Assembly (NCBI GenBank): GCA_023249105.1
Contig: JAHFDG010000034.1
Coordinates: 1 to 40,847, forward strand
Length of the DNA: 40,847 nucleotides
From: Candidatus Methanoperedens sp.
GTDB taxonomy: Archaea; Halobacteriota; Methanosarcinia; Methanosarcinales; Methanoperedenaceae
Reading direction: 5' to 3'
The translations under genes and the position numbers were made by a program. The notes beneath the pieces were generated by a model. It saw nothing but the letters and a program-made list of their open reading frames with translations, did no database searches and had not been told where the DNA came from. Of the stretch, positions 10,681 to 27,674 are shown piece by piece. Within the stretch, counting starts at the first letter, position 1; each line of letters begins with the position of its first letter.

Positions 10681-11373
10681 ATGAACACGAAAAGGTTATT
10701 CATCTTTATTCACGTCGTGATTTTATTATGCTTACCCCACCAGTCTTTAAGAGCGACGGAAGAATCAAGACTCCGGCCACTGGGTACTTCCGAGTCTGCC
10801 AATGTCCTAAACGCTCTAAGGTCAGAGCTTCGCGCCACCGAAAACTTCGAGACACTAATAAGACGGGCAAGAAAAGAGTTAAGCAGGTACATCCTGATCG
10901 TAAATACTCAAAAGTTAAGGAACCCAGAGCAGGGGGAACAGTTATTCGATAGGCTCTTTGATCTCCGGCTTTGGTTCAACACGATTCACCCGGACAATAA
11001 TCAGGAATACAGAAGATGGCGGGAAGTGAAGGATGGGATCATGTTACTTCTGATGCAAACAGCACGGGAGATTTTAGAATTAGATAGGCATGGAAGCTAT
11101 GATTATAAAGATTGGGGAATTCTGGCATCAGCAAGAAGGTATGTTGTGAAACTCCGGGCTATCACTTTGAAAGAGATAACGAATCGGCAACTCCTAGAGG
11201 ATATGATGGATGGACTTGAAGATGCCACAGATTTTATCGCTGGAGTGGACATCGACGAGTACAAAGAGGAATTTGAGTTTGTGTACGCGCAGATAGTTTC
11301 AACGGCCCAAAATGTGACGGCGAGAATTGTGGAGCTTGAACATGAACGAAGTGAGATTAGAAAGGCGGCATGA
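10681..11373 (+). CDS. Secreted helical protein with LRPL/RSELRA motif
   Basis: A 230-residue protein. Residues 1-25 form a signal peptide (KR, hydrophobic FIFIHVVILLCL, cleavage near LRA). Just after it comes a striking segment with LRATEESRLRPL and later RSELRATEN, a near-repeat. The rest is helical and charged, without catalytic motifs. Post-signal LRP.. and RSELR stretches recall secreted proteins of Omnitrophota-like bacteria, as I remember them, which would make this a host-derived gene. It immediately precedes the glycan genes (ATGA overlap with the cupin), so an envelope role is possible. Confidence 0.55.
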   Translation: MNTKRLFIFIHVVILLCLPHQSLRATEESRLRPLGTSESANVLNALRSELRATENFETLIRRARKELSRYILIVNTQKLRNPEQGEQLFDRLFDLRLWFNTIHPDNNQEYRRWREVKDGIMLLLMQTAREILELDRHGSYDYKDWGILASARRYVVKLRAITLKEITNRQLLEDMMDGLEDATDFIAGVDIDEYKEEFEFVYAQIVSTAQNVTARIVELEHERSEIRKAA

Positions 11374-11777
11374 ATAAAATAACTGTTGGCGATGAAGTCT
11401 ACGCAATTTTAGTGTTACAAAAGAAAGCAAAAAAAGGCACGACCTGGATCGGCGAACCTTACGAACCTTTGCAAGGGTCGATCATGAAATACGAAAAAGG
11501 TAAGGTATTCAGGCTTCACAGGCACATATTAAACCCGCGTATGATCCAAAGAACGCAGGAAGCGTTTGTCGTCATTTCCGGCAAGATAGAAGTGGTCATG
11601 CATGACAAAAACTTTAAACCGATTGGGTCATTACAAGCCTCAGCCGGGGATGCGATTTTTATTTACCGGGGGGGGCATGAAGTGAAAATTATTAAAGATG
11701 CTGTTCTTTATGAGATCAAAGCCGGGGCGTACACTTACGTTTCAGACGATAAAGAGTTTAAAAATGATAAGAGTTAG
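11370..11777 (+). CDS. Cupin-fold protein of glycan island
   Basis: A 135-residue single-domain cupin: KVFRLHRH near residue 46 gives the first metal-binding His cluster, followed by EAFVVISGKIEVVMHD and SAGDAIFIYRGGHEVKI, the two beta-barrel cupin motifs, and a C-terminal strand (YEIKAGAY). Small cupins of this type in polysaccharide clusters are sugar isomerases or regulators; the exact chemistry cannot be told. It overlaps the aminotransferase gene by 14 bases, so they are probably co-translated. Confidence 0.65.
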   Translation: MNKITVGDEVYAILVLQKKAKKGTTWIGEPYEPLQGSIMKYEKGKVFRLHRHILNPRMIQRTQEAFVVISGKIEVVMHDKNFKPIGSLQASAGDAIFIYRGGHEVKIIKDAVLYEIKAGAYTYVSDDKEFKNDKS

Positions 11778-12720
11778 CGAGCCTTTGCTCCTCGGAAACG
11801 AAAAAAAATATTTGTGCGAAGCTATCGACGAGGGCGAAGTCTCAAGCGGCGGGAAGTTTGTCAGGCAATTCGAGGAAGCTTTTGCAAAGTGGTCAGGTAA
11901 TAAATACGCGGTGGGCGTCTCAAGCGGGACAGCGGCGTTGGAAGCGGCGATTTGGGCTTTAGGGCTTCGTGGAATATCCGTACCTTCGGGAACGATCATA
12001 AGCTGTTATGTTGCGGCAATTCGTGCCGGGACAAAAGTTTTGTTAAGAGACAACGGAACAAACCCAAAACATGTCCATTTTATGCGCTGTCATCTATTCG
12101 GGGAGTTTGACGATTGCGGGGGGTTGTGGAACGTTGACGACCTTTCGCAGTATTGGAAACCCTATACCGTCCCCGATGTCGGATGCTATTCGTTATACGC
12201 CAATAAACTTGTTACGTCCGGTGAGGGCGGGGTGATTGTCACAAACCGCGAGGCGATTTACGAACGGTTAAAGTCATACCGGAACCTTTGTCACGGGGAT
12301 GAACGGTTTATCCACGATGATCTTGGTTATAATTTCAGGATGTCAAACGTGCAGGCGGCGGTTGCATTAGCTCAATTAGAGCAGATTGACAAATTCACCG
12401 AGATCAAACAAAGGAACAGAGATTTATATTTGAAATATCTACCGGAAGATATCGCCCCTAAATTCAGGTTTGAAGTTCCGTGGATGTATTTGGTTTATTA
12501 TCACGGGGACGCCGGGGAAATAGTCAAGAAACTGCAAGAGCTGGGCATTGAGTCCCGCCGCTTCTTTTATCCTATTCATCGGCAGAGTTTTATTAATGTG
12601 AAAGGTGACTTCCCCAAAGCGGATGATTTATGGGGGCATAGTTTTTATTTACCCAGCGGGTTAACACTGACGGAGGGTGAGATCATTCATGTTTGCAAAA
12701 TGCTACAGTCAATATTATGA
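11764..12720 (+). CDS. DegT/DnrJ/EryC1-type sugar aminotransferase
   Basis: A 318-residue PLP enzyme, starting at ATG 11764 (MIRVSEPLLLGNE); a frame from 11698 lies inside the cupin gene. Family landmarks are GVSSGTAALEAAIWALGLRG (substrate/PLP pocket), NVDDLSQY and the Schiff-base lysine Lys148 in SLYANKLVTSGEGG, then LGYNFRMSNVQAAVALAQLEQ. It transfers an amino group to a keto-sugar nucleotide for cell-surface glycans. It is about 50 residues shorter than typical members. Neighbours are a cupin and a methyltransferase, an amino-sugar modification set. Confidence 0.85.
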   Translation: MIRVSEPLLLGNEKKYLCEAIDEGEVSSGGKFVRQFEEAFAKWSGNKYAVGVSSGTAALEAAIWALGLRGISVPSGTIISCYVAAIRAGTKVLLRDNGTNPKHVHFMRCHLFGEFDDCGGLWNVDDLSQYWKPYTVPDVGCYSLYANKLVTSGEGGVIVTNREAIYERLKSYRNLCHGDERFIHDDLGYNFRMSNVQAAVALAQLEQIDKFTEIKQRNRDLYLKYLPEDIAPKFRFEVPWMYLVYYHGDAGEIVKKLQELGIESRRFFYPIHRQSFINVKGDFPKADDLWGHSFYLPSGLTLTEGEIIHVCKMLQSIL

Positions 12721-13336
12721 GCTGTTCAATTCTGACAAGCCCTACAAAAAAGAAATAGAATTTGTTTACAAATGGGCCGGGAACCCTTCAAGGATTTTAG
12801 ATATCGGTTGCGGTACGGCGAATTACTGGCAGCATTTCCCGCACGATTGTTTTATTGTCGGGATTGACAGCTCGAAGGAAATGATTGCGGCTTCAAAGCA
12901 TAAGAACAGGATACTTCACCAGAACGTATTAGAAGGTTTTAAAAGGACATGGTTACAGGTCGGATTAGTCACGGCTTTATTTGACGTTATAAATTACATC
13001 CCAGATCATTCATGGTGGAAAGATTTACCGCTTCAGAAAGGCGGGCATTTTATATTTGACATTTTTAATGAATCTATGGTAAAAAGGGATGGATTTCGAG
13101 CAACTAAGAAAACTATCGGTAGTATAAGCCGGATGATTTCGCCATTAAATTATGATGGCAAAAAGATTATTTTAGAAATTAAATTTGGAGGCAATGGCTT
13201 AAAATTACAAGAATTACACACTATGTATATCTGGAGTGAAAAAGATATTGAATCATTTTGTGGGCGAGAATTTGGGATTGTAGAGGTTAAAAATACGTCG
13301 ACATGGCAACAGTGGTGGAAACTCCAGAGAAAATAA
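12689..13336 (+). CDS. SAM-dependent methyltransferase
   Basis: A 215-residue class I methyltransferase. Motif I DIGCGTAN begins at residue 38, motif II around VGIDSSKEM and motif III GHFIFDIF. I chose ATG 12689, with GGAGGG upstream; a GTG at 12677 lies on that site. It overlaps the aminotransferase by 32 bases and the HNH gene by 34 bases. It probably methylates a sugar or sugar nucleotide in this island; the substrate is unknown. Confidence 0.8.
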   Translation: MFAKCYSQYYELFNSDKPYKKEIEFVYKWAGNPSRILDIGCGTANYWQHFPHDCFIVGIDSSKEMIAASKHKNRILHQNVLEGFKRTWLQVGLVTALFDVINYIPDHSWWKDLPLQKGGHFIFDIFNESMVKRDGFRATKKTIGSISRMISPLNYDGKKIILEIKFGGNGLKLQELHTMYIWSEKDIESFCGREFGIVEVKNTSTWQQWWKLQRK

Positions 13337-13752
13337 AATTTGGCAATGCATATCACAAAAGGTGGAGGGCTTTGCATCCAGAATCAGTTAAAAAAAGCGC
13401 GATTAAATTTAGGCGGAAAAATAAAAAAATATTAAAAATATATCACCAAGATTGGTACCAAAGAAATAAAAAAAAACATGACGATAGATCAAAAGAATAT
13501 GTTAAAAAAAATCCATGGGGGAGGCATTATAATAATGCAAGACAAAGATGCGTTAACCCAAAAAGAAAAGACCGAAGCAGCTATAAAGGTATAAAATTTT
13601 TGATGACTGTTGAAGATTTCAAGTTTTTATGGTTCCGAGATAAAGCCTTTAATCTTCGGAGGCCGAGCATAGATCGGGTTAATCCTAGGGGAGATTATAT
13701 TATATCAAACTGTCGTTTTCTTGAGATGAGAGAGAATTGTCAAAAAAAATAG
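13303..13752 (+). CDS. HNH-family homing-type endonuclease
   Basis: A 149-residue, very basic, AT-rich gene product. The C-terminal part (RRPSIDRVNPRGDYIISNCR, then FLEMRENCQ) is the DR-V-P-GDY-NCR-L-EN signature of phage HNH endonucleases related to free-standing homing enzymes. The N-terminal half has HPESVKKSA-type DNA-binding helices and a KNPWGRHYNNARQR region. It is wedged between the methyltransferase and the GT4 genes with 34- and 16-base overlaps, and its base composition differs visibly from both. Likely a mobile gene that promotes exchange of the surrounding region. Confidence 0.7.
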   Translation: MATVVETPEKIKFGNAYHKRWRALHPESVKKSAIKFRRKNKKILKIYHQDWYQRNKKKHDDRSKEYVKKNPWGRHYNNARQRCVNPKRKDRSSYKGIKFLMTVEDFKFLWFRDKAFNLRRPSIDRVNPRGDYIISNCRFLEMRENCQKK

Positions 13753-14732
13753 CTCTTTTGCATCGGCACACAAAAGACCGTATCTGCGAGACGAACGCGG
13801 CGTTCCCATATTTGGCTGAAAAAGGAATGGACGTTTTGACGTTTAAAAATTTTAACCGTTTAAGTGGATTCGGGAAGTTTTGGAAGTCTCTTTTCTGGAT
13901 TATTTACGCTCCGTTTCTTGTGATGGGAAAAGGCTACGACGTGGTGTACTGTGACGACAGCTATCCGTTTTATCCCGCCCTTGTAAAACTCGCTTCCCCA
14001 AAATCAAAAGTTATCATCCGGTTAGGTGATTTTCATCTGATGTATTATTACTCTGGGTTTGTTTATAAAATCCTGCATTATATCGAGAAAATTTGTTGGG
14101 GAATGGTTGACGGGATAATCGCTATTTCATGGGACATGGCGAATTTGATAAGGAAAGAAACAGGGCTGAAAGTGGATATTGCGCTTGACCCGGTTGATTT
14201 AAAAGAATTCCTGCCGCTGAAATCTACTTATAACCCTGAAACTATGTTCCCTATTGTTATGACTCATGGGGTGTTAACAAAAAACAAAAATGTTGATCTT
14301 GTTTTAGAAGCGGCGCGTTTTTTACCTGACGTACGATTCTGGATTATCGGGGACGGGCCGGACAGGAAACGGCTTGAAGCTGACAAGCCCAGAAATGTCT
14401 GGTTTTTTGGTTGGCGGTTTATGGACAGAATAAAATATTATATTAAAGATTGCAATGTGGGGCTAGCTTTGAGAAGCGATAACCCCGGCAATGATTACGT
14501 TGTCACTTCTCCTTTTCTTCAATACGGTTCAATGGGGAAACCTTGTCTTGTGACTCGGCGGAAAGTTTTTGGAGATTATGAATGGCAATTTTCTGGGGTT
14601 GATGAAATGGTCGAGAAGCTGAAAGTTCTTTTGGGCCATCCAGAAGAAGGCGAGAAATTGAGGGAATATGTGATTAAAAACCACGATGCGGAAAAGATTG
14701 CGGGAGAGATATGGGGGATTTTGAATAATTAG
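13737..14732 (+). CDS. Glycosyltransferase family 4
   Basis: A 331-residue GT-B enzyme starting at TTG 13737 (MSKKIALLHRHTKD). The N-terminal Rossmann half has VVYCDDSYPFYPALVKL. The C-terminal half has GVLTKNKNVDLVLEAA, then WIIGDGPDRKRLE and VWFFGWRFMD, the usual GT4 donor-binding order. A late SPFLQYGSMGKPCLVTRR replaces the common P-E-A-x-A-x-G-x-P motif. It transfers a sugar from a nucleotide donor to a growing surface glycan. It overlaps the HNH gene upstream; the pentanucleotide tract begins at its stop codon. Confidence 0.85.
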   Translation: MSKKIALLHRHTKDRICETNAAFPYLAEKGMDVLTFKNFNRLSGFGKFWKSLFWIIYAPFLVMGKGYDVVYCDDSYPFYPALVKLASPKSKVIIRLGDFHLMYYYSGFVYKILHYIEKICWGMVDGIIAISWDMANLIRKETGLKVDIALDPVDLKEFLPLKSTYNPETMFPIVMTHGVLTKNKNVDLVLEAARFLPDVRFWIIGDGPDRKRLEADKPRNVWFFGWRFMDRIKYYIKDCNVGLALRSDNPGNDYVVTSPFLQYGSMGKPCLVTRRKVFGDYEWQFSGVDEMVEKLKVLLGHPEEGEKLREYVIKNHDAEKIAGEIWGILNN

Positions 14733-14811
14733 GCAAGGCTCGGCGGGGTTCGGCGAGGCAGGGTGTGGCGCGGCGGGGTTGGGCTCGGCTTGGCTGGGTG
14801 TGGCAAGGTTA
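14732..14811 (+). repeat. Pentanucleotide (GGYNN)n tract, 16 units
   Basis: Sixteen consecutive 5-base units of the form GGC/GGT plus two variable bases start at the last base of the GT4 stop and end 32 bases before ATG 14844. The tract is G-rich against AT-leaning surroundings. A similar tract lies at 15910. The two bracket a two-gene cassette. No open frame or terminator is associated. Confidence 0.85.
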
Positions 14812-14843
14812 ATTTATAACTTTAAAACAACGAAAGGATGAAC

Positions 14844-15422
14844 ATGAAAAAGCTGAAAGTTAGTATTAAAGGCACAAGGGATTTGATTATGCATAACGGA
14901 AGGCTTGCGAACCCGCTAGACCCTTGGACGAGAGCGGTTAAAGCCGTGATTGAGAAGAAAGATAAAACTGATAAGGGTTTGATTGAGCTTATGAGAGTAG
15001 AGGCAAGAGCAAGCATTTACGAAACAGAAAAAAAAGAAGTTGGGCTCCCTGCTGAAATTGTTTACGCGTCGATTCTGGAGGCCGCCAGAGTACGTAAATT
15101 AGGAATGAAAATTGAAAGGGGGGTTCGGTATGATCCTATTACGGAACCTCTATTTATAAATGGGAAAATATTTAACGCTGATAAGTTCATAGAAGACCCG
15201 AAAAATATTTATTATGTTTCTGTCGGGAATAGAGGCAATCGGGTAATGAGATCGCGACCAATTATTAAAGGAGAATGGAGGGCGGATTACGAATTTGAAT
15301 TAGATCAAAACATTTTAAACATTGAATCGTTTGTTGAAATTCTGGTGTACGCTGGCCCGTATATAGGGCTTTGTGACAGAAGGCCTTTATATGGGACGTA
15401 CAAAGGGGAGGTCATAAAATGA
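14844..15422 (+). CDS. Conserved phage protein with IMHN motif
   Basis: A 192-residue protein; AAAGGA six bases before favours ATG 14844 over 14838. The N-terminus KVSIKGTRDLIMHNGRLANP and later VGLPAEIVYASILEAAR, VMRSRPIIKGEW and ALY-type C-terminus (GLCDRRPLYGTYKGEV) match a conserved phage/mobile-element family I have seen beginning TPLLMHNG. The beta-strand pattern resembles RAMP-like or RNA/DNA-binding folds, but I know no proven function. It is paired with the gene at 15419 and lies between two pentanucleotide tracts, out of context among glycan genes. Confidence 0.55.
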   Translation: MKKLKVSIKGTRDLIMHNGRLANPLDPWTRAVKAVIEKKDKTDKGLIELMRVEARASIYETEKKEVGLPAEIVYASILEAARVRKLGMKIERGVRYDPITEPLFINGKIFNADKFIEDPKNIYYVSVGNRGNRVMRSRPIIKGEWRADYEFELDQNILNIESFVEILVYAGPYIGLCDRRPLYGTYKGEVIK

Positions 15423-15904
15423 CGATTTATCAACAAATTAGTGACTATCTAATAAATAATCCTAAAAAAGAACCTGAAGATATTGTGAAAATGATTATGG
15501 ATCACAACGCAAAGAAAGAATTTTATCCATTAGTCCTTAAAGCTGTTGTTGACGAAAAAAGGATGTTAGCCAGGGCTAAAGAGGAGAAAATATTTAATAA
15601 AATGGTGGATGAAATGAGCATTGATGTTTCTGATGCTCGTATGTATAGCGAGAATTTTGAAAGCTCAAGTTATTCGACATTTGAAAGTCTTATGGATGCG
15701 GAATTCAAGATAAGGGGGAATGACTATATCAAATGGCGTGATGCGACCATTGAAGACCATGAGCGTTACATTGAGGCCTTGAAAGTGCAAATAATGGGTT
15801 GTGAAAGGAACGTCAGACTTCACCAGAAAGCGATTGAAAAAATAAGAAAACATGGCGTTACTTGTTTGAACGAAGTCCCTAAAAAAGATTTAGTTTTAAT
15901 TTAA
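15419..15904 (+). CDS. Cassette partner protein (161 aa)
   Basis: A 161-residue helical protein overlapping the previous gene by 4 bases (ATGA). It has an acidic middle and the block DYIKWRDATIEDHERYIEAL followed by AIEKIRKHGVTCLNEVPKK; the latter ending is a pattern I have seen in phage early proteins. Function unknown. It ends just before the second pentanucleotide tract, so the two genes look like a transferable unit. Confidence 0.55.
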   Translation: MTIYQQISDYLINNPKKEPEDIVKMIMDHNAKKEFYPLVLKAVVDEKRMLARAKEEKIFNKMVDEMSIDVSDARMYSENFESSSYSTFESLMDAEFKIRGNDYIKWRDATIEDHERYIEALKVQIMGCERNVRLHQKAIEKIRKHGVTCLNEVPKKDLVLI

Positions 15905-15909
15905 GTTGA

Positions 15910-15979
15910 GGCGTGGCCTGGCGATGTTTGGCCAGGCGAGGCCGGGCAAGGCTAGGCAAGGCTAGGCAAGGCTAGGCGA
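15910..15979 (+). repeat. Pentanucleotide (GGCNN)n tract, 14 units
   Basis: Fourteen 5-base units, one of them irregular (TGTTT at 15925-15929), the last eight including three copies of the decamer GGCAAGGCTA. It starts 6 bases after the stop of the 15419 gene and ends 27 bases before ATG 16007. It is the same repeat type as 14732-14811, in the same orientation. Confidence 0.85.
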
Positions 15980-16006
15980 GGAACATATTAAAAATGAGGA
16001 GTTATT

Positions 16007-16816
16007 ATGGCAAATCCTAAAGCAAGCATAGTCATTTTGAGCAAGAACCCGCCTCAAGCCTTGATTGAGCAATTGAAAGCCCAGACCTTTCAGGACTTTG
16101 AAATTGTCTATGCGAGGGAGAGAGGCATTTTATTTGCCATGAATTTAGCATTAGAGCGTTGTAGGGGTGAGATCATGGTCAGGATCGACGATGATGTTTC
16201 TATCCCCCCAAAATGGCTAGAATCGCTTTTAAAGCCCTTTTCTGATCCTGACGTTTGCGGGGTGACTGGCCCAACTTTTGTTCCCAAAGACAGGCGCAAC
16301 AACCGGGACAGCATCCGCTATGCTGAAAACCCGCATTGGTTTCTTAAATGGCTTTATGATAACGGGAAGTTCATGCCAGCCGGGATCTATAAATGCGGGT
16401 GTGTATCGTATGACTCCAATTACGAGGAAAGATTTAAAGAGAATTATATCCATTTTAGTTATGAGCCGGATCATCTTGAGGGAACGAATTGGGCGATGCG
16501 GACGGAACTGATACGGAAAGTCGGCGGGTTTGACAAGAAATTTGATGGGGTATGTGAATGGTTCGATGATGACGTGACGTTTAAAATCAAGAAGCTAGGA
16601 TATCGGTTAGCCTATCGAGCCGATGCTTATCTCTATCATCTTCTTGAGAAGGGTGGTCATTTCAACGAACGGTTCGAGGGATGGGGCCGGATCAAGAATT
16701 TCTTGAGGTTCCATATTCGGCATGGCAAATTTCATCCCAAGATGGTTTTGTATCTTTTGGTTTGGTGGGGGTATTTTATTTCTAAGAAATGGGGGATAAA
16801 AAATGACGCACGATGA
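16007..16816 (+). CDS. Glycosyltransferase family 2 (A)
   Basis: A 269-residue GT-A enzyme with GAGGAG upstream of ATG 16007. The fold begins ASIVILSKNPPQALIEQL. The donor/metal motif is RIDDDVS with Asp61-63, and the acceptor-side acidic motif lies in EWFDDDVTFKIKKLGY. A basic, aromatic C-terminus may contact the membrane. Typically adds one sugar to a lipid-linked or polysaccharide acceptor. It overlaps the next gene by 14 bases. Confidence 0.85.
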   Translation: MANPKASIVILSKNPPQALIEQLKAQTFQDFEIVYARERGILFAMNLALERCRGEIMVRIDDDVSIPPKWLESLLKPFSDPDVCGVTGPTFVPKDRRNNRDSIRYAENPHWFLKWLYDNGKFMPAGIYKCGCVSYDSNYEERFKENYIHFSYEPDHLEGTNWAMRTELIRKVGGFDKKFDGVCEWFDDDVTFKIKKLGYRLAYRADAYLYHLLEKGGHFNERFEGWGRIKNFLRFHIRHGKFHPKMVLYLLVWWGYFISKKWGIKNDAR

Positions 16817-17291
16817 GGCTATTAGTAAGATGCTGGGGCGTAGGCTGATAAAAAAACACTATGATTTTTTAATAAATTATAATCCAGATGTTTGTTATAC
16901 GGTGCTGGCCAAAAAATCCGGATTTTCCTATTCCTCAATACATGGGATGATTGAGGAATATGGATTAAAGCATAGAGATATTAAAAAGGCAAGAAGAAGC
17001 AAAAGAAGAAAATATGATAAACCGGAAACCCAATATAGGTTAAATAATTGGGATGAAAAGCTTACGTTAGAACAATTAGCAGATAAATTTGGTGTTTCTG
17101 TTACAACGTGTTGGAATTTGGCTAAAGATAAACATCTAGAATTTAGAAGATTAATACCAGAAAAACGCGAAATGAAGCTTAAAAGAGATAGGATCAAGAC
17201 TTTGGTTAGACAAGGAATAAGATTACAGGAAATAGCTAGATATATTGGTATTTCAAGGGAAAGAGTAAGGCAGATAGTCGAAGGCGTATAA
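16803..17291 (+). CDS. Multi-HTH DNA-binding protein with sigma region 4-like C-terminus
   Basis: A 162-residue, basic, AT-rich gene product with three helix-turn-helix-like segments: TVLAKKSGFSYSSIHGMIEEY (about 33-53), LEQLADKFGVSVTTCWNLAK (about 89-108) and LQEIARYIGISRERVRQIVE (about 141-160). The last matches sigma70 region 4.2 (ISRERVRQI). There is no nuclease motif. It could be a phage transcription factor, or the DNA-binding part of a mobile-gene system. It sits between two GT2 genes and overlaps the first by 14 bases. Confidence 0.65.
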   Translation: MTHDEAISKMLGRRLIKKHYDFLINYNPDVCYTVLAKKSGFSYSSIHGMIEEYGLKHRDIKKARRSKRRKYDKPETQYRLNNWDEKLTLEQLADKFGVSVTTCWNLAKDKHLEFRRLIPEKREMKLKRDRIKTLVRQGIRLQEIARYIGISRERVRQIVEGV

Positions 17292-17297
17292 ATAAAG

Positions 17298-18125
17298 ATG
17301 CAAAAAATATCGGTCATAATCCCAACCATGAAAGGGAGAGAAGAGCTTTTAAAAAAGCTTCTTTCGACACTTCCTGATGATTGCGAAAAGATCGTTGTCG
17401 ATGACGAAGATTTACTCTTGGCAGCTAAAAGGAATAAGGGGGCGAGACAGGCAAAAGGGGATTATTTCCTTTTCATCGACGATGATAATTACCTGAAAGA
17501 ATTTTCAATATCTGAAATGCTGAAAGCCTTTGATGGAACTATTGGAGTCATGGGAATGACCGCCTGTTACCACGATAAGAAAATGATTGTTGCAGATGGT
17601 GGATCGGACAGGAATTATCTAACAGGGTTTACTTATGGCGTTGGAACAAACGATAAAATATCAGACTGGAACAAAAAAGGAATTTATACCGTTGACGAAG
17701 TTGCGAACGCTTTTATGATCCCGCGTCATGTATTTGACGAAGCCGGCGGGTTCGATGAAGAAAACTTCCCGATTGATTTAGACGAAGCTGATTTATGCAA
17801 AAGAATAAAAGACATGGGGTATTTGATTGTAATGAACCCAAAAGCTATTTGCTACCACCGATCGAACACGTATTCACCAATTCCAAATTTCAGGAGGCCA
17901 ATCAGTGCGTACCATCTTTCAAGGAATATCATCTTGTATCAGGGAAAGCATCTTAATGCTTTATCCTATTTCGTGTTTTGTGTTGTTTTCCTTCCTGTAC
18001 GTCTTTGTTTTTATACAGCTTCGCTTATTTGGTATAAAAACTTTCAAATGATTCCGCACATGATAAGGGGGTTTTGGGATGGATTACGATGTCGTCGAGA
18101 AAATCCATATCAGCAAAAATTGTGA
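17298..18125 (+). CDS. Glycosyltransferase family 2 (B), rhamnosyltransferase-like
   Basis: A 275-residue GT-A enzyme. KISVIIPTMKGRE opens the fold; FLFIDDDNY holds Asp61-63. Later come AFMIPRHVFDEAGGFDE and DLDEADLCKRIKDMGY, the acidic acceptor motif seen in WbbL-like rhamnosyltransferases. A hydrophobic segment (LSYFVFCVVFLPVRLCFY) near the C-terminus suggests membrane association. It overlaps the HPr-kinase-like gene by 47 bases. Confidence 0.85.
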   Translation: MQKISVIIPTMKGREELLKKLLSTLPDDCEKIVVDDEDLLLAAKRNKGARQAKGDYFLFIDDDNYLKEFSISEMLKAFDGTIGVMGMTACYHDKKMIVADGGSDRNYLTGFTYGVGTNDKISDWNKKGIYTVDEVANAFMIPRHVFDEAGGFDEENFPIDLDEADLCKRIKDMGYLIVMNPKAICYHRSNTYSPIPNFRRPISAYHLSRNIILYQGKHLNALSYFVFCVVFLPVRLCFYTASLIWYKNFQMIPHMIRGFWDGLRCRRENPYQQKL

Positions 18126-18888
18126 AAAGGTAGGGGCGTTTTTATACGATCCTGAAATTGACGGGCTGTATCATGAAAGCCCTTGGCCTTTCCCTGTTCA
18201 GATCGGGATAACGCATGGGTTGACTCGATGTCAAGTCACGCCGATGTTTTTAAAGCTCCCGTTTATTTTAAAGGGCTGGCTCAACGAGCAAATCCTTCTT
18301 CGGATGATCGAGCTTTTGCGGCTTGTCGGGCAGGGAAAGATTTTGATGCATAGCAGTTGCGTTGACAATACATTGATCGTCGGATTCCCGAATTCGGGCA
18401 AGACGTATCAGACTTATAAAAACGTCTCAAACGGGGGGAAGCTGATCTCTGAGGAATATACAATTCTTGAGATTGAAAAAGATGGGGTGGTTGCTTCGCC
18501 GTATAAACCCGTCATGCGTACTTGCTTTTCAGGCCGCACGCTTAAAGATTGTAAAATTGAGACTTCTTTTTATGAAAAAGCATGGCTTGCGGCGGCGAAT
18601 TTAAGAGCGTGGGCTTTCCCGTTCATGTACGAAGGAGTGATCTGGAAAGAGATCCCGGCAACTGGGAATACGTCGCTTATCAAAAAGATTGTTTACGGCT
18701 CAACGGGCAGAGAGATTAAGGATTGGAAAACTTTCGCAATCCTTTGCGAGAATGAATTCCCTTTTATGGCGAGTGAATTTTTACAGGCTTATGCGGTGGC
18801 ATCCGGCTTTGACATTTTAGGAATCCAGAAACGGCAGAGAGAATTGATAAAAGAAATTATTGATAAAGTTTATGGTGGCCAATCTTAA
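18079..18888 (+). CDS. HPr-kinase-like P-loop protein
   Basis: A 269-residue protein. ILMHSSCVDNTLIVGFPNSGKT (P-loop at 102-109) follows the HPrK/PckA-like arrangement in which a His-Ser/Ala strand precedes the nucleotide loop; LISEEYTILE then stands where the family usually has an acidic metal site. The N-terminal 80 residues are a separate domain. HPr-kinase-like proteins occur in exopolysaccharide and peptide-modification clusters, where they phosphorylate small substrates. Here the substrate is unknown. It lies between two GT2 genes and overlaps both. Confidence 0.65.
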   Translation: MDYDVVEKIHISKNCEKVGAFLYDPEIDGLYHESPWPFPVQIGITHGLTRCQVTPMFLKLPFILKGWLNEQILLRMIELLRLVGQGKILMHSSCVDNTLIVGFPNSGKTYQTYKNVSNGGKLISEEYTILEIEKDGVVASPYKPVMRTCFSGRTLKDCKIETSFYEKAWLAAANLRAWAFPFMYEGVIWKEIPATGNTSLIKKIVYGSTGREIKDWKTFAILCENEFPFMASEFLQAYAVASGFDILGIQKRQRELIKEIIDKVYGGQS

Positions 18889-19472
18889 GCATACTTATCC
18901 CCAACCATCTTGAGCCGCAGATTGAAGCCTTTGTCCAAGAAATAGAAAATCTTGGGGTTTCAAGTGAGATCATCATCTGTATGGACAGGGGGAGCCGTGG
19001 GAAAGGATGGGCATTAAGAGAAGCATTTAAAGTGTCGAAAGGGGATTTGGTTTCTTTTATTGACGGAGATGGTGATTGTTGTGCTAGAATGTTGCTTAGA
19101 CTTTTGCCTTTCGCAGAAGATTTCCCTGTGGTTGTAGGGTCGAAACGTATTACAAAATCGCCTTTAAGAAGAAAGATAATGACTCATGTTACAAGATGGT
19201 GGTTCCGCCTTCTTTTTGGAGTAAAAGTTGATACTCAGACTGGAATTAAAATATTCCATAGAGAAGCCCTTGAAAAACTTGAAAATGGTTGGGCATGTGA
19301 CGATTTTTTATTTGACTTGGAAATAATAGCAAGATTGCAGAAATTAAATGTAAAAATGGTTGAAGTCCCGGTAGAGGTTGAAATCAAACGGCAGGTATCA
19401 TTAAAAACAATTTTTTTGATTGCTTGGGGGAGCATATGTCTACGATTAAATTTATTATTAAAAAAAGAATAG
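18872..19472 (+). CDS. Glycosyltransferase family 2 (C), DPM/GtrB-like, frameshifted at start
   Basis: From ATG 18981 the frame gives GT2 features (RGKGWALREAFKVSKGDLVSF, DGDGD, TGIKIFHREALEKL) as in dolichol-phosphate-mannose-synthase-like enzymes. The first GT2 strand is missing there, yet the same frame upstream (18885-18980) encodes LSILIPNHLEPQIEAFV, the classic beginning, with no start codon. ATG 18872 lies in another frame and reads MVANL just before it. One base too many at about 18883-18887 separates the two. So either the gene is newly broken, or ribosomes shift +1 at CTT AAG, or the assembly has one extra T. The first ATG in the intact frame is 18981. Confidence 0.6.
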
Positions 19473-19876
19473 GCCGCCCAAAAGATAAAAATAATTGGGT
19501 GGAAAGAATATGTAAAGCCTGTGGTTTAAAATTTATGGCCCGGCGATGTTATACAAAACGCGGGCAAATGAAATATTGTTCCGCAAAGTGCGGGTACCAA
19601 AATAAAGGAGAAAGGAATGGCCGTTGGAAAGGAGGCCGAAGTATAGATAATGGATACATTAAATTATATTCGCCAGATCATCCGTTTAGAGATTATGCAA
19701 ATAATGTTATGGAACATCGTCTGGTTATGGAAAAACATCTTAATAGATTGTTAAAACCAAAAGAAATTGTCCACCACATCAATCATATAAAAACAGACAA
19801 TCGAATTGAAAATTTAGAATTATTCGGCAATCAGTCTTTACATCGTAAAGCGCATATTAAAGAAAAGCATGCCTAA
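19436..19876 (+). CDS. HNH endonuclease with zinc ribbon
   Basis: A 146-residue, AT-rich, basic protein starting at ATG 19436 (GGGGGAG upstream). A zinc ribbon (CKACG... and KYCSAKCGYQNKGE) is followed by GRWKGG and the HNH motif EIVHHINHIKTDNRIENLEL, ending in H-x-KAH. This is the layout of phage HNH homing-type endonucleases. It overlaps GT2 genes on both sides (37 and 8 bases), so it is inserted precisely without breaking them. Confidence 0.8.
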   Translation: MSTIKFIIKKRIGRPKDKNNWVERICKACGLKFMARRCYTKRGQMKYCSAKCGYQNKGERNGRWKGGRSIDNGYIKLYSPDHPFRDYANNVMEHRLVMEKHLNRLLKPKEIVHHINHIKTDNRIENLELFGNQSLHRKAHIKEKHA

Positions 19877-20546
19877 AGTCTCAATAATAATCCCATGTAA
19901 AACAAAAGATTATTACGCGAAACGTTGTATCAAGGCATGTAAGAAATATTGTCCTGATGCCGAGCTTCTTGTCATAACTGACAAAATATGTTCCGGGCAT
20001 CCCGCCGGGAAAAGGAATTATGCGATGAGGATTGCAAAAGGGCATATTTTCGCTTTTATCGATTCTGATGCGTACCCATCGGAAGACTGGATGAGAAACG
20101 CCCTTTATTGGCTTAAAGTGTTTCCTGCTGTTTGTGGGCCGGGAGTCTTGCCTCCCGATGCTCCTTTCAGGGAAAAAGTCGCGGATCAAGTGCATAAATG
20201 GATGTTTTGCCCTTACCGCGTGATTCCGCAAAGCGCAAGGACGGTACGCTGGCATCCCACATTTAATTTAATCGTCTGGAAAGAATCTGCGTCTCAGTTT
20301 GAGGATTATCTGACAGGGGAAGATGATAAATTTTGCTCTAACATTGAAGAAGGTATATTTTATCATCCTGACATTTTGGTTTATCATAATAGACGCGGCA
20401 TATTCAAACCGCTATGGAGTCAATTTGGGGTATGGGCGAGGCACAAAGGCCATTTTCAGAGACTTGCGTTTGTGGCGTGGCTGACAACGTTATGGGTGTA
20501 CGCGGTTAATTTTGTGATTGGGTTTTTTAAAAGGAGGCTGTCTTGA
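19869..20546 (+). CDS. Glycosyltransferase family 2 (D)
   Basis: A 225-residue GT-A enzyme: KVSIIIPCKTKDYYAKRCI opens it, FAFIDSDAYPSEDW carries the D-x-D, and HPTFNLIVWKES stands at the acceptor side, with a C-terminal hydrophobic segment (LWVYAVNFVIGFFKRR) that would anchor it to the membrane. It probably acts on a lipid-linked glycan. It overlaps the epimerase gene by 4 bases. Confidence 0.8.
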   Translation: MPKVSIIIPCKTKDYYAKRCIKACKKYCPDAELLVITDKICSGHPAGKRNYAMRIAKGHIFAFIDSDAYPSEDWMRNALYWLKVFPAVCGPGVLPPDAPFREKVADQVHKWMFCPYRVIPQSARTVRWHPTFNLIVWKESASQFEDYLTGEDDKFCSNIEEGIFYHPDILVYHNRRGIFKPLWSQFGVWARHKGHFQRLAFVAWLTTLWVYAVNFVIGFFKRRLS

Positions 20547-21550
20547 AGGCGCTTGTGACAGGGGCTTTAGGGTTGGTTGGTTCCGAAGCTGTCCGCTATT
20601 ATCTAAACAACGCCTGTGAAGTGATTGGGGTAGATAACGACATGCGAAAACACTTTTTCGGGGAAGATGCGTCCGTTGCAAAAAACAAAATAGATCACGG
20701 CAATTACAGGCATTTTGGAGTTGATATTTCAAAGATTGAGGGATTATTCGAGAACGAAAAGCCGGATGTAATTATTCACGCGGCGGCACAACCGAGCCAT
20801 GATTATTCCGCGCAAAACCCGTTACTTGATTTCGGGATTAACGCTTATTCGACGCTTATGCTTTTGGAAATGGCAAGGAAACATACGCCGGCCGCGGTGT
20901 TTATTTATCTTTCGACGAATAAAGTTTATGGGGACAGGCCGAATGAGTTTGATTTTCAGGAATTTGATACTCGCTATTCGATCCCTAGGCAGAGTAAGGC
21001 TGTTACTGCTTCCACTTTGGGATTTAACGAGTCTTTGAGTATTGATTTTACGACGCATTCCCCTTTCGGAGTTTCAAAGCTGGCGGGTGATTTATACGCG
21101 CAGGAATACGCCCGGTATTTTGGGCTGAAAACTGGTATTTTCAGATGTGGCTGTATCACGGGCGCAAGACATGCCGGCGCAGAACTTCACGGATTTCTTT
21201 CCTACATGGTAAAATGTAAAAAAGAAAATAAGCTTTATACGGTCTATGGTTACAAAGGCAAGCAAGTAAGGGATCAGCTTCATGCCTCGGATTTGGTTCG
21301 TGCGATTGACTGTTTCGTGCGTAACCCAAAGCCGGGCGAGGTCTATAACATGGGTGGGGGCCGCCAGTGTAACGTTTCGATTCTTGAAGCGTTCGATATG
21401 CTAAAAATGAAAAAATGGGAGTATGTCGGTACCCCAAGGAAAGGTGACCACAAATGGTATATCAGCGATACTAAGAAATTTGAAAATGATTTCCCTGAAT
21501 GGAAACGGCGATATACTCTATATTCGATATTCGGAGATTTAATGGGATGA
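20543..21550 (+). CDS. NAD-dependent nucleotide-sugar epimerase/dehydratase
   Basis: A 335-residue extended SDR protein starting at TTG 20543 with AGGAGG before it. The NAD loop is TGALGLVGSE (6-15). HAAAQPSHDYS and YLSTNKVYGDRPNE follow the CDP-paratose/CDP-tyvelose 2-epimerase pattern. At the catalytic Y-x3-K site it reads SPFGVSK: Phe175 stands in place of the Tyr, with Lys179 kept. IFRCGCITGARH matches family position. It would interconvert nucleotide sugars for the GTs here, unless the Tyr-to-Phe change has altered or abolished catalysis. Confidence 0.8.
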   Translation: MKALVTGALGLVGSEAVRYYLNNACEVIGVDNDMRKHFFGEDASVAKNKIDHGNYRHFGVDISKIEGLFENEKPDVIIHAAAQPSHDYSAQNPLLDFGINAYSTLMLLEMARKHTPAAVFIYLSTNKVYGDRPNEFDFQEFDTRYSIPRQSKAVTASTLGFNESLSIDFTTHSPFGVSKLAGDLYAQEYARYFGLKTGIFRCGCITGARHAGAELHGFLSYMVKCKKENKLYTVYGYKGKQVRDQLHASDLVRAIDCFVRNPKPGEVYNMGGGRQCNVSILEAFDMLKMKKWEYVGTPRKGDHKWYISDTKKFENDFPEWKRRYTLYSIFGDLMG

Positions 21551-21780
21551 GCGGAATCCCCCCGGCTCCACAGCCTAAAATAAGCGATTCAGATTTTGAA
21601 CCTTGGGCATATCGGGATCTTGTCAAGAAAAGATTGGAGTACAAATTGCATAAAAAGTTTAAGGAAGCCGATGAAATCAGGGATTATCTTTTAAGTCTTG
21701 GGATTACGATCGAAGTTGATGGCATTTATTCATTGTGGGGGCCAACGGGGGGATTTTCTAGAGTGGAAACGTCTATATGA
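21547..21780 (+). CDS. Small protein resembling cysteinyl-tRNA synthetase C-terminal segment
   Basis: A 77-residue protein from ATG 21547 (overlaps the epimerase stop). The block LVKKRLEYKLHKKFKEADEI, then RDYLLSLGITIEV, corresponds to the end of bacterial CysRS (the ..ARAAKDFAxADxIRDxLxxxGI.. segment), followed by D-GIYSLWGPTGGF. There is no catalytic domain. It may be a recruited domain that binds tRNA or another RNA, or a convergent small helical fold. Confidence 0.5.
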   Translation: MSGIPPAPQPKISDSDFEPWAYRDLVKKRLEYKLHKKFKEADEIRDYLLSLGITIEVDGIYSLWGPTGGFSRVETSI

Positions 21781-21823
21781 GATACCTTTTCCCATTAAAC
21801 CCCTATAACCAGCAACGGTAACT

Positions 21824-22327
21824 ATGAATACAAAAAAATGCACTAGATGTAAAAATGTGAGAGACGTTAAGTTTTTCTATTTCTACAAAAAAAGGAAGGT
21901 TTACAGGTCTAACTGCAAGCCGTGCTACAACGAATGGTCTAGAGAATACGGTAAGCAAAAAGAAGTTAAGGAGAGAAGGAACGAAAAGTACAAAAAGTAT
22001 GGTAATAAAAATCTAAACAAGTGGCTTTCGTGCATTCCAAAAGAGACAAATTGTGAAATATGCGGGGTTAGATTGGTTTTTAACAGCAGAAATTCAAATA
22101 CAAGCATTCATTTTGACCACACGCAAGAGAATTGCGATATTAAAGTAAGCCCAATGACATGGTTAATCCGTCGAGCCTACAATGAGATCAACAAGAAAAT
22201 ATGGCTAAGGTGTAACTTTGGGTGGCTTTGTGGAAAATGCAACCGCGCACTCCCAACAATTGGGAGAGAAAAATGGTTGAAGAAAGCCTTGCAATACGCA
22301 GAGAGAAAAAATGAGAGTTCTTTTTAA
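21824..22327 (+). CDS. HNH / endonuclease VII-type homing endonuclease
   Basis: A 167-residue, Lys-rich, AT-rich gene product. Two zinc knuckles (CTRCKN...CKPCYNEW; CEICG...CGKCN) frame FDHTQENCDIKVSPM and WLCGKCNRALPTIGRE, the pattern of endonuclease VII-like HNH enzymes. It overlaps the radical SAM gene by 17 bases. It is the third such gene in the glycan island. Confidence 0.75.
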   Translation: MNTKKCTRCKNVRDVKFFYFYKKRKVYRSNCKPCYNEWSREYGKQKEVKERRNEKYKKYGNKNLNKWLSCIPKETNCEICGVRLVFNSRNSNTSIHFDHTQENCDIKVSPMTWLIRRAYNEINKKIWLRCNFGWLCGKCNRALPTIGREKWLKKALQYAERKNESSF

Positions 22328-23324
22328 AGACAGCCCTTATCACGGTCAAAGGCAATTCCAGAAACCCGCTTGGATTTACCCTGCTCATCTCGCGGCCTAC
22401 GCGACCAATTTGAGAAACCAAGGGGATGAAGTTTCTTGGTTAGGTAAAGACGATGGAAGTTTCGATAAGGTTATTGAATCCGACCTTGACATTGATGTCG
22501 ATTTTGAGAACCTCCCTTTCCCAGATAGAGTTTTCACAAATGCTAAAGCCCCGAAGTACCTTTCATACGGAAATTATAAGAAAAAACCTGCCACGCACTA
22601 TCTGTCCTCAAACCTTTGTTGGTGGGCTGGGAAGAAAGGCTGCGTTTTTTGCGTAGATTCCGAAAGAATAATTAATGGCGAGAAGCGTGGGGTGAGGGCA
22701 GTAGACCATGTAATGACTGAAATTGAGAATTGCGCGAGCCTTGGTTTTAAAGAAATGTTTGATGATGCTGGGACGATTCCCATAAACGCTTGGTTGGAAG
22801 ATTTATGCAACGCCATGATAAAGACGGGTCTAAACAAGCGCATGATGTTGGGATGCAATTTAAAGCCAATAAAGCAGAATTTTAAATTGATGAAGAAGGC
22901 AGGTTTTAGATTTATCCTTGTTGGCTTGGAGTCTGCGAACCAAAAGACTATTGACCGTATTCAAAAAGGCCAAAGGGCTGATAAAGTCATCGAGAATTTC
23001 AAAGCTATGTCGGATGCAGGGTTAGAGCCTCACGCCACAAGTATGCTGGGATATGAGTGGGAGACCCACGAGGACGCAATGCGGACTGTAGATTTGATTT
23101 ATTTCCTGTTACGGAAAGGCTATATCAAGACCGCGCAGGCTTCGGTATTCATGCCGCCGAGAACGGCCCCGCCCAAAGATCATCCAGCGCAAAAGTATGT
23201 ACAAAAGATTTACGACGTTTATAAAAAGCCTTGGTACTGGTGGAAGAAAATAACGGATGTCAGATGTCTTGAGGATGTGACGTATCTTTTAAAAAGATTG
23301 AACCATGTCAAACATGCTGAATAG
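22311..23324 (+). CDS. Radical SAM enzyme, CX7CX2C variant
   Basis: A 337-residue protein. The N-terminal 90 residues look like a reduced B12-binding-type Rossmann domain (DSPYHGQRQ, IYPAHLAAYATNL). The iron-sulfur motif is CWWAGKKGCVFC (Cys103, 111, 114), spacing C-x7-C-x2-C, as in CWWGxxxxCTFC-type B12 radical SAM proteins including RiPP maturases; classical radical SAM proteins have C-x3-C-x2-C. GFRFILVGLESANQKTIDRI and IQKGQ are the family barrel motifs. It could methylate or modify a sugar or lipid carrier for the glycan genes, or a peptide; the substrate is unknown. Confidence 0.75.
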   Translation: MRVLFKDSPYHGQRQFQKPAWIYPAHLAAYATNLRNQGDEVSWLGKDDGSFDKVIESDLDIDVDFENLPFPDRVFTNAKAPKYLSYGNYKKKPATHYLSSNLCWWAGKKGCVFCVDSERIINGEKRGVRAVDHVMTEIENCASLGFKEMFDDAGTIPINAWLEDLCNAMIKTGLNKRMMLGCNLKPIKQNFKLMKKAGFRFILVGLESANQKTIDRIQKGQRADKVIENFKAMSDAGLEPHATSMLGYEWETHEDAMRTVDLIYFLLRKGYIKTAQASVFMPPRTAPPKDHPAQKYVQKIYDVYKKPWYWWKKITDVRCLEDVTYLLKRLNHVKHAE

Positions 23325-23334
23325 GAGGTGTAAA

Positions 23335-23433
23335 ATGAAAAAATGGTTATGGGAATATAGTGATGCGATTATGTTTTTTGTGTTTGTTTCTCTTGGCTTT
23401 GCAGCTTTGATTTTAATGGCTAAAATCTCATAA
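23335..23433 (+). CDS. Small single-pass membrane protein (32 aa)
   Basis: ATG 23335 has AGGAGG upstream. The product has a Lys/Trp N-terminus and one transmembrane helix (MFFVFVSLGFAALILMA), with a short polar tail. A good ribosome site makes it credible in spite of its size. Function unknown; it precedes the large membrane protein. Confidence 0.5.
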   Translation: MKKWLWEYSDAIMFFVFVSLGFAALILMAKIS

Positions 23434-23459
23434 AGACGGCTGATGAATGAGGGCGATCA

Positions 23460-24830
23460 ATGGAGAGAATCTTCTGGATAATATTTGTTAATTTTGCGCT
23501 TTACTGCAAGGTTTTAAAGCATAAGTTTGTATCAGATGACTTTACCGTCTGGAAAAATCCGCCGCCAGTCAAGAACGCATGGCATAAAGCTTGGTTGCGG
23601 TTTATTGGGGCCGCAAAGTTCCAAAGTCCATGCCCTCGGATTTTGAAATATAACGGCAAATGGGTGCTTGCGATTATCAAGACGGAATGGCTAGAGCATT
23701 TTATAGCGTTATTAATTCATATTGCTATCTGCGTATCAATCTATTTTGCGTTTGGGGCGAGCCGGGCCGCTTTTATCGCGGCCCTGCTTTACTCGACAAA
23801 CCCAGTGAACAACCAAGGCACGATCTGGCCGGGGGGGAGGGGGTATGCGCTCCCGATTCTCTCGCTAATGCTGGCAATGGCTGTGCCTATCCTTTCGCCT
23901 GTCCTGCTTTACTTTTGTTCATGGTTTACCATCGGATTCTTTGCGCCTCTTGCGTTGATTGGCTCGTCAAGGTGGTATCTTCTTGGGCTGATGCCTGTCA
24001 TCTGGTGGCTTCATTCCCGCAAATACACAACCGCGATAAAGCTAAAGCAGAAAACAGAGACTTTCGACGAAGATAAGAAAATGAATTTCAACAAGGTGAT
24101 CGTATTCTTTAAGACCTACGGATTTTACCTTGTGTTATGCCTTATTCCTTTCAGGATAACTTTTTATCATAATTTCCTGCAATCAATGGCGGGGAATGAC
24201 ATTATGAAGAAACGAGCTCATTCGATGGATAGATATTTTTGGGTCGGGTTACTGGCATGGTTTGGCACGTTTGTTTATGCCGCGCTTCATTGGGGGCCGT
24301 TAGCTTGGGCTTTCTTAGCGTTCTTAATTGCTATCTTGCCGTTTTGTAATGTTGTCCGCGCAAATCAAGAAATTGCGGAACGATTTGCATGCATGCCGAA
24401 CGTGTTTTTAATGTTCGGTTTGGCGCAAGTGATTAGCTCATATGATGTTATAGTTACAGCGTTTTTAGTGTTTTATGCGACGCGTGCGTGGTGGACGGTT
24501 GGGTTATACCGAGACGAATACTGGATAACCGAAATGGCGGTGGTTGAAGACCCTCATGCGTGGTGGGCGTGGCATTGCCGGGCTATGAAACGATGGGACA
24601 CGCAAAGCTACAAAGAGGCGCTTATACTGTGGGTGATGGCGAAACTGATATCCCCGAAAGAATTTAAGATATTGATGAATATTGCGTCTTGTCTCCGGCT
24701 GTTAGGTAACAGCAAAGAAGCTGACGAATATCTGGCACTTGCAGAAGCGAACATCATTGCCGGGCAGGAAGTGGAAGCGCAAAACTATATTGCTGAACAT
24801 CGGCGCGGGAAACTCCCGATTTTACTTTAA
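23460..24830 (+). CDS. Multi-pass GT-C-like glycosyltransferase with TPR tail (TMTC-like)
   Basis: A 456-residue membrane protein. FVSDDFTVWKNPPP (Asp26-27 after the first transmembrane helix) and ALLYSTNPVNNQGTIWPGGR correspond to the DD loop and the HPVxxExVxWxxGR loop of TMTC/PMT-like GT-C proteins. About eight to ten hydrophobic helices follow, and the last 100 residues have helical repeats (ALILWVMAKL, ASCLRLLGNSKEADEYLAL) resembling TPR. GT-C enzymes take a lipid-phosphate sugar and transfer it outside the membrane. With the DPM/GtrB-like GT2 at 18872 this would form a two-step glucosylation-type system. Specificity unknown. Confidence 0.65.
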   Translation: MERIFWIIFVNFALYCKVLKHKFVSDDFTVWKNPPPVKNAWHKAWLRFIGAAKFQSPCPRILKYNGKWVLAIIKTEWLEHFIALLIHIAICVSIYFAFGASRAAFIAALLYSTNPVNNQGTIWPGGRGYALPILSLMLAMAVPILSPVLLYFCSWFTIGFFAPLALIGSSRWYLLGLMPVIWWLHSRKYTTAIKLKQKTETFDEDKKMNFNKVIVFFKTYGFYLVLCLIPFRITFYHNFLQSMAGNDIMKKRAHSMDRYFWVGLLAWFGTFVYAALHWGPLAWAFLAFLIAILPFCNVVRANQEIAERFACMPNVFLMFGLAQVISSYDVIVTAFLVFYATRAWWTVGLYRDEYWITEMAVVEDPHAWWAWHCRAMKRWDTQSYKEALILWVMAKLISPKEFKILMNIASCLRLLGNSKEADEYLALAEANIIAGQEVEAQNYIAEHRRGKLPILL

Positions 24831-25053: not shown

Positions 25054-25346
25054 ACACCACTGAACGCGAAAAAACAATCAAAGAATTATTCGTTGGAGAA
25101 TGTTGGGGATATTTGCGTAAGAATTTCTCCAAGTTTAATCAGACCAACAAGATAAAGATTGCTTTGGAGCTTTGCAAAAAAGATATTCCGCAAGAAGTGA
25201 AGGGCAGTTATCAAATAACCCAAATGCCGGTGATCCAGATGATGATATCTGATGAGGCGCATCCAATAAAACTGGAGTATAAAATTGGAGCGTCTCCTTT
25301 TACCAAAGATACTGGATATCCCTCCGAAATTACTACCACTCCTTGA
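25050..25346 (+). CDS. Probable small terminase subunit / pre-TerL protein
   Basis: A 98-residue protein immediately upstream of TerL, overlapping it by 62 bases. Helical NTTEREKTIKELFV and KFNQTNKIKIALELCKKDIP are followed by a short conserved tail (EYKIGAS) as found in small proteins in this genomic position in many phages. There is no clear HTH. Position favours a small terminase; sequence alone does not prove it. Confidence 0.45.
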   Translation: MNTTEREKTIKELFVGECWGYLRKNFSKFNQTNKIKIALELCKKDIPQEVKGSYQITQMPVIQMMISDEAHPIKLEYKIGASPFTKDTGYPSEITTTP

Positions 25347-27431: not shown

Positions 27432-27674
27432 ATGGGTTGGGCTGAACGATCGAATCCAAAAAGCGAATGGAACAAGAAAAGAGCCGGGCTTGTTGAAATG
27501 CCGTTCTCGACCCAGACCACGCAGAAACAGAAGTTTATCGAGGCGCCGACCCCCGTTAATCGGGATGAGCCTGTGATTGTGCAATTAACCCTTAAAAACC
27601 TTTGGGGTATTTTGTGCCACAGACTCAGCCTGATGTTCCAAAAGCACTCGCCAAGCCACGCGCCGACGAGTTAA
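27432..27674 (+). CDS. Small hypothetical protein
   Basis: An 80-residue frame; ATG 27432 has GGAAAAGAAA upstream, better than ATG 27381. It is basic and hydrophilic (WAERSNPKSEWNKKRAG) and its last 61 bases overlap the portal gene in another frame. The overlapped end has unremarkable composition, so the true length may be shorter. Confidence 0.35.
   Translation: MGWAERSNPKSEWNKKRAGLVEMPFSTQTTQKQKFIEAPTPVNRDEPVIVQLTLKNLWGILCHRLSLMFQKHSPSHAPTS

Follow-up and report, generated by a model that had tools for sequence, protein, structure and literature searches.

A block of glycan genes on contig JAHFDG010000034.1 (the window: the entire 40,847-base contig C119, from a 3.28 Mb bin assigned to Candidatus Methanoperedens) is a core part of a phage lineage, in which it takes several arrangements and is not recent cargo. 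We favour, with moderate confidence, the view that these genes form a core operon, shared by a lineage of uncultured podoviruses, which alters the glycans coating the cell during infection. The initial annotation had placed a phage-borne glycan synthesis island at positions 10681 to 24830. The activities it named, from aminotransferase to radical S-adenosylmethionine (SAM) protein, are all found there in one direction (+), as judged by Pfam, NCBIfam and PHROGs scans and by predicted folds, and its phage-borne nature is borne out, as is a likely role in making or modifying glycans; the operon order recurs in independent contigs, more than chance would give. The extent has to be reduced from the third of the genome first suggested: glycan genes, which lie between the early genes and the terminase, total ~10.2 kb, or 25% of the 40,847 bases. 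The interval also holds three HNH-type endonuclease genes, two phage genes, a gene for a helix-turn-helix (HTH) protein and a small open reading frame (ORF), so that it is not a solid island. Its start also moves, since the protein encoded at 10681 has no relatives in the operons elsewhere; the shared operon begins at 11370.

Conservation of the operon across the phage lineage

Relatives of the window were gathered by the portal protein alone, blind to the sugar genes, which gave 40 loci plus 2 more. The count was limited to loci with at least 4.5 kb upstream of the terminase, keeping 14 of the 42 and leaving out 28. Both the GT-C glycosyltransferase and the radical SAM protein were encoded upstream of the terminase in 14 of 14 such loci. 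The compact family 2 glycosyltransferase, GT2c, was found in 10 of the 14, and the other four contigs end before the place of GT2c. Among the 28 loci left out, the GT-C gene was visible in 9 and in none of the remaining 19, which are short upstream. A separate set of 28 records was chosen for carrying operon genes; only the 42-locus portal set is unbiased.

Three arrangements can be recognized. The first, seen in 10 relatives that span the stretch from the DegT place to GT-C, runs in the order cupin (or other sugar dehydratase-like genes), DegT, methyltransferase, GT4, GT2a, GT2b, HprK-like, an optional second epimerase, GT2c, GT2d, epimerase, radical SAM and GT-C, with the terminase next in 9 of the 10. 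The second epimerase, in the gap between the HprK-like gene and GT2c, is missing from the window and from some relatives. The second arrangement belongs to more distant members and consists of three other GT2 genes, usually a dehydratase, then radical SAM, GT-C, GT2c and the terminase. In the third (L211, L216 and L225), GT2c and one GT2 gene lie farther upstream. Radical SAM, GT-C and GT2c, near the terminase, form the most widely shared trio. Two records, L161 and L213, have the first arrangement (shorter and rearranged in L161) adjoining virion genes on the opposite strand, and no terminase or portal relatives were found in the stretches of these two that were examined. At the DegT place, the window and 5 relatives encode the full-length enzyme and 8 records a short form of ~195 residues; the short form (e.g. 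L059 5839-6429) does not have the C-terminal part. The HNH genes, the two phage genes (PHROG 4652 and 4604-like), the HTH gene and the gene at 10681 are absent from the operons of most relatives. The PHROG 4652 protein (14838-15422, 3.7e-39) has a 29% identical relative that is also located at the operon start of G152.

The operon genes diverge with the virion genes. In Mantel comparisons, distances between GT-C proteins correlated with those between portal proteins with r 0.90 (n=27), as tightly as capsid with portal distances (r 0.85, n=21). The p values are soft, because operon genes partly guided the choice of records and a few of these are nearly identical (GT-C is the same in L002 and L004). 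Values for the other operon genes against the portal were r 0.55-0.82 (n=8-10), and r 0.58 for radical SAM (n=26). Since these genes track the portal less tightly than GT-C does, some exchange of operon genes has occurred. The ratio of nonsynonymous to synonymous substitution rates (dN/dS) was 0.11-0.23 in the 4 informative pairs (two GT2b, two radical SAM), indicating purifying selection; it is readable for those 4 only, no other operon-gene pair being within the usable range.

Predicted activities of the operon proteins

The features of the operon and its two landmarks are collected in Table 1.

Table 1. Operon genes, inserted genes and landmark genes of the window
Feature	Coordinates	Strand	Evidence and remarks
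WbuC-like cupin, first gene of shared operon	11370..11777	+	Cupin_2 6.5e-4 and WbuC 1.3e-8, both below cut-off; relatives in place 50-59% identical
DegT-type sugar aminotransferase, perosamine-synthase-like	11698..12720	+	PF01041 6.8e-44; perosamine synthase 3dr7 5e-35
Class I SAM methyltransferase	12677..13336	+	PF13649 2.2e-6; relatives 45-50%
HNH endonuclease, sporadic insertion outside the pathway	13303..13752	+	PHROG 3377 1.7e-9; present in G149, absent from most relatives
GT4 glycosyltransferase	13737..14732	+	PF13692 2e-7; type A relatives 56-66%, distant L213 41%, L161 54%
Two phage genes (PHROG 4652, 4604-like; starts 14838 and 15419), window insertion	14838..15904	+	Absent from most relatives' operons
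GT2a glycosyltransferase	16007..16816	+	PF00535 4e-11
HTH DNA-binding protein, window insertion	16803..17291	+	Pfam and PHROGs scans
GT2b glycosyltransferase, one C-terminal hydrophobic segment	17298..18125	+	PF10111 1.5e-9; hydropathy
HprK/PEPCK-fold P-loop protein, probable kinase	18079..18888	+	Predicted structure, pLDDT 84.6
GT2c, compact polyprenyl-phosphate-sugar-synthase-like GT2	18882..19472	+	Profile of 14 members; ATC where relatives have ATG
HNH endonuclease insertion	19424..19876	+	PF13392 1.5e-9
GT2d glycosyltransferase, C-terminal hydrophobic segment	19869..20546	+	PF00535 2.1e-8; hydropathy
NDP-sugar epimerase/dehydratase	20543..21550	+	PF01370 5e-40; nearest solved is CDP-tyvelose 2-epimerase; 9rl0 3.6e-45, 1orr 1.4e-38
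Small ORF, inside interval, not a glycan gene	21499 (start)		
Endonuclease VII/HNH-type insertion	21824..22327	+	PHROG 2633 1.5e-12
Radical SAM protein, HpnJ/PhpK/BchE-like group, N-terminal part short	22311..23324	+	PF04055 5.9e-13; HpnJ 3.3e-15, below cut-off
GT-C glycosyltransferase with C-terminal TPR, PMT/TMTC-like	23460..24830	+	Predicted structure, pLDDT 84.3
Terminase large subunit, landmark adjoining operon	25285..26634	+	PHROG 3717 1.1e-43
Portal (head-tail adaptor), unbiased probe	27602..29290	+	PHROG 332 6.6e-127

The GT-C protein had no Pfam match above the cut-off, only a weak one to tetratricopeptide repeats (TPR), and none in NCBIfam. Its predicted structure is a good model (mean predicted local distance difference test, pLDDT, 84.3), and the best matches, Pmt4 and ALG12, bear out the earlier guess of a GT-C-like protein. 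Pmt4 (9i5k) was matched with Z 16.6 over 282 residues at a root-mean-square deviation (rmsd) of 4.4, followed by ALG12 (Z 16.0) and ArnT (Z 14.2). These values come from a second structure aligner, in which matches to the TPR tail alone reach Z 14, so the lead of Pmt4 and ALG12 is ~2 units; Foldseek ranked TPR proteins first. The model has ~11 candidate membrane helices, the sidedness of which we infer, and then the TPR. Directly after the first helix stand S25-D26-D27, invariant in 16 of 16 members. The family PF08409 (DUF1736) was matched by 0 of the 16 at E up to 1, and a GT-C profile found weak partial matches only, in 10 of 145 genomes, when searched against the phylum. Among the listed ORFs, GT-C alone has more than two strongly hydrophobic segments that are clearly set apart, and Pfam scans of the operon gave no flippase family (GtrA, SMR or MATE).

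A profile of 14 GT2c members matches dolichol-phosphate mannose (DPM) synthase (5mlz, 2.2e-6), ArnC (5.9e-6) and the GtrB sll0501 (4.5e-5), and on this profile evidence GT2c belongs with the polyprenyl-phosphate-sugar synthases (DPMS, ArnC, GtrB), which attach a single sugar to a lipid phosphate at the inner membrane face. The protein initially taken for HPr-kinase-like has no match in Pfam, NCBIfam, PHROGs or PDB sequences, and that guess holds at the level of the fold only. Its model aligns with HprK (1ko7) at Z 8.8 over 100 residues, rmsd 2.5, which is near the stated background of the aligner (7-8), and with PEPCK (2pc9) at Z 8.4 over 195 residues, rmsd 4.2. The P-loop residues G107, K108 and T109 are invariant in 11 of 11 members. 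The HprK/PEPCK fold is thus backed by a consistent family, the P-loop and the 195-residue PEPCK alignment, and a kinase role is probable from the model. In the radical SAM protein, C103, C111 and C114 are invariant in 16 of 16. The epimerase, DegT, methyltransferase and cupin resemble, in sequence, makers of deoxy-amino sugars. GT4 has no relatives among PDB sequences.

The phage contig and its host

PHROGs scans of the window identified podovirus genes for a Cas4-type exonuclease, NinG, terminase, portal, protease, major head protein, tail tubular protein and a 992-residue tail protein; no integrase was recognized in the window. Most likely, the contig represents a near-complete podovirus genome with circular permutation, because relatives of the open frame at its right end and of the frame starting at base 17 are consecutive in G149 and G151, where the order is internal virion protein, the end-frame relative and a 955-residue protein.

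Several other genes of the window deserve mention. About 15 overlapping 18/12-nucleotide repeats at 7800-8153 encode a Gly-Tyr-Ser-Asp-rich tract within the ORF 7663-8133. Residues 175-325 of the tail protein (phrog_376, 36315-39293) form a lectin-like domain, Laminin_G_3, and some relatives align only outside it. A sulfotransferase-like gene (34391-35041) lies within the tail gene block and an acetyltransferase-like gene (phrog_1249, 26631-27095) in the gap between terminase and portal; no relative of either was found in the other phages compared. The gene at 10681-11373 encodes a putative exported protein with an N-terminal hydrophobic segment, no family match and no relative within the operon of other phages. 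It may resemble proteins of Omnitrophota.

The ribosomal RNA of the bin is archaeal (RF01959, 1552 bits vs 1118 for the bacterial model). A portal relative was found in 1 of 148 other related genomes, at 30% identity, and relatives of the HprK-like protein and of the protein at 10681 in 0 of 59. The bin and its genus supplied 634 distinct CRISPR spacers; among the best matches listed, none to the window or its relatives exceeded 21 bases of ~35. A DPBB_1 (RlpA-like) lytic transglycosylase is predicted at 3978-4325 (36.6 bits vs a curated cut-off of 28.8), with related genes in several relatives; as read from its sequence, it argues for a bacterial, murein-bearing host. With no longer spacer match among those listed, a lineage not found in related genomes and a murein-lytic gene, the contig is likely misbinned, or else this is an archaeal podovirus. 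Relatives occur in two other bins, one labelled Saccharibacteria and the other "bacterium", the latter of a group with mostly small genomes; the bins disagree as to the host. A second podovirus-like contig in the bin, C115, has a portal 28% identical to that of the window.

Proposed host surface remodelling, its alternatives and known systems

In the mechanism we propose, an unusual nucleoside diphosphate (NDP)-sugar would be made in the cytoplasm by DegT, the epimerase and the methyltransferase, with probable participation of the cupin and of the HprK-fold kinase. GT2c would put one sugar onto polyprenyl phosphate, the lipid-linked sugar would be flipped, perhaps via a host flippase, and GT-C would transfer the sugar, outside the membrane, onto an exported protein or a glycan of the cell surface; the radical SAM protein may alter the sugar or the lipid. 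The changed surface would block superinfection and spare progeny from re-adsorbing to debris. Remodelling of the host surface is suggested because GT2c and GT-C point to lipid-linked transfer on the outer face and stand beside sugar-making enzymes; the GT-C enzymes described in PMC11127046 and PMC7801869 act on the outer face of the membrane, where they use lipid-linked donors according to PMC11127046. Surface glycans can matter for adsorption, as infection of Streptomyces by phage phiC31 is reported to require the Ppm1/Pmt pair (PMC5882110). The proposal is built on gene content, order, conservation and predicted folds, from which we infer substrates, topology, acceptor and benefit.

Several points weigh against it. 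No flippase, initiating phosphoglycosyltransferase or polymerase was recognized in the operon, so the host would supply them, and the complete phage-made oligosaccharide envisaged at first is not demonstrated. As no integrase was found, the precedent of lysogenic conversion is not directly transferable. Radical SAM relatives (54-67%) occur in phage contigs of 48-54 kb with no GT-C nearby (L177, L178, L179, L182, L186 and L188). In the window, codon 18882-18884 of GT2c is ATC, aligned with the ATG of relatives, which makes expression of this copy uncertain. The operon also adjoins structural genes, a position that would suit a set for decorating virions.

The initial annotation had left it open whether the glycan re-coats the host or decorates the virion. 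Decoration would mean that the cytoplasmic GT4 and GT2 enzymes glycosylate capsid or tail proteins and shield the particle. The operon adjoins the terminase and co-diverges with the portal, the tail protein has a lectin-like domain, and glycosylation of mycobacteriophage virions has been reported (cited in PMC12619734). However, the most widely shared transferases are GT2c and the membrane protein GT-C, and their relatives of known structure work with lipid-linked donors outside the cytoplasm. Tailed virions assemble inside the cell, which also counts against decoration. Re-coating of the host is therefore favoured, the most widely shared transferases being of the lipid-linked-donor, extracytoplasmic type, and decoration appears improbable. 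We give the same low credence to metabolic help, in which the product of the operon, be it a glycolipid, an exopolysaccharide or some small glycosylated compound, would benefit the infected cell and be no surface disguise; the HprK/PEPCK-fold and radical SAM proteins are atypical of seroconversion sets, but the DPMS-type and GT-C steps point to the envelope.

Transfer of sugars to phage DNA as protection from restriction is very unlikely. Some phage glycosyltransferases do act on DNA (PMC12838424, PMC12619734), but a membrane GT-C enzyme has no role there, and the 50 ORFs scanned against PHROGs included no base-modifying enzyme or nucleotide kinase. We give even less weight to an ordinary host capsule or lipopolysaccharide (LPS) fragment picked up by the phage or by assembly. 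Its gene families are typical of surface-polysaccharide loci and the interval has a slightly lower G+C (0.417 vs 0.453), but conservation among the portal-fetched relatives refutes this origin for the block as a whole, and HprK-like relatives are absent elsewhere in the bin and from the 59 related genomes. Misassembly with host DNA, which the initial annotation had said would refute its reading, is excluded because many independent contigs show the identical gene order. On a further reading, the whole lineage would have an extracytoplasmic pathway of its own for protein glycosylation, in which the compact DPMS-like synthase and the PMT/TMTC-like, TPR-bearing GT-C attach a sugar, made by the phage and modified by radical SAM, to exported proteins of host or phage. 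This would be an obligatory infection step and no optional trait; we regard it as tentative and rather unlikely.

Phage-encoded surface glycosylation is already known, and three-component periplasmic glycosylation (GtrA/GtrB/Gtr; GT136) is described in PMC11127046 for Shigella, Salmonella and, once in that account, a Caudoviricetes genome. As in Gtr-type systems, the phage has a GtrB-like synthase, GT2c (without ATG in the window), and a GT-C transferase. Unlike them, the operon has no recognized GtrA or MATE flippase and no integrase, it has many more genes, and its GT-C bears TPR. As first noted, the set exceeds that for Gtr seroconversion, adding sugar synthesis, a GT4, three further GT2, a kinase fold and radical SAM. 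Because no flippase was recognized, we liken the operon to Gtr-type systems and do not class it within them. The TMTC O-mannosyltransferases are described with an acidic pair in the first outer loop and a TPR tail (PMC7801869). The phage protein shares with PMT/TMTC the GT-C fold (best match Pmt4), the Asp-Asp after the first helix and a DPMS-like partner; its ~11 candidate helices followed by TPR would also fit their plan if the TPR lies outside the cytoplasm. It differs in being phage-encoded and in having no PF08409 match.

Large sets of surface-sugar genes are also reported in other phages, such as the LPS gene clusters of the T4-like cyanophages P-SSM2, S-SM2 and S-SSM7 and the glycosyltransferases of pelagimyophages (PMC3037559, PMC7029224). 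Those sets are sporadic in large myovirus genomes and their function was doubted ("stuffer DNA" was considered), in contrast to a fixed operon beside the terminase in a 40 kb genome. The epimerase and DegT are nearest to the CDP-tyvelose 2-epimerase and perosamine synthase of O-antigen pathways, but the likeness is distant. Among 50,697 named phage records there were no matches to GT-C, radical SAM or the HprK-like protein, 1 distant match to GT2c, and 214 records with epimerase matches below 60% identity; searches of one open library found no published account of the phage lineage. What is new, and was not found among those records, is a fixed core operon with a TPR-bearing GT-C, a compact DPMS-like GT2 and a radical SAM protein in a 40 kb podovirus lineage. 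Two families without a match in those records, one GT-C/TPR and one radical SAM, are added by it, and the question of why hosts are repainted by phages becomes testable on a single compact operon. Sugar genes of phages are usually optional cargo with a guessed role; here they take up about a quarter of a 40 kb genome and are kept like capsid genes.

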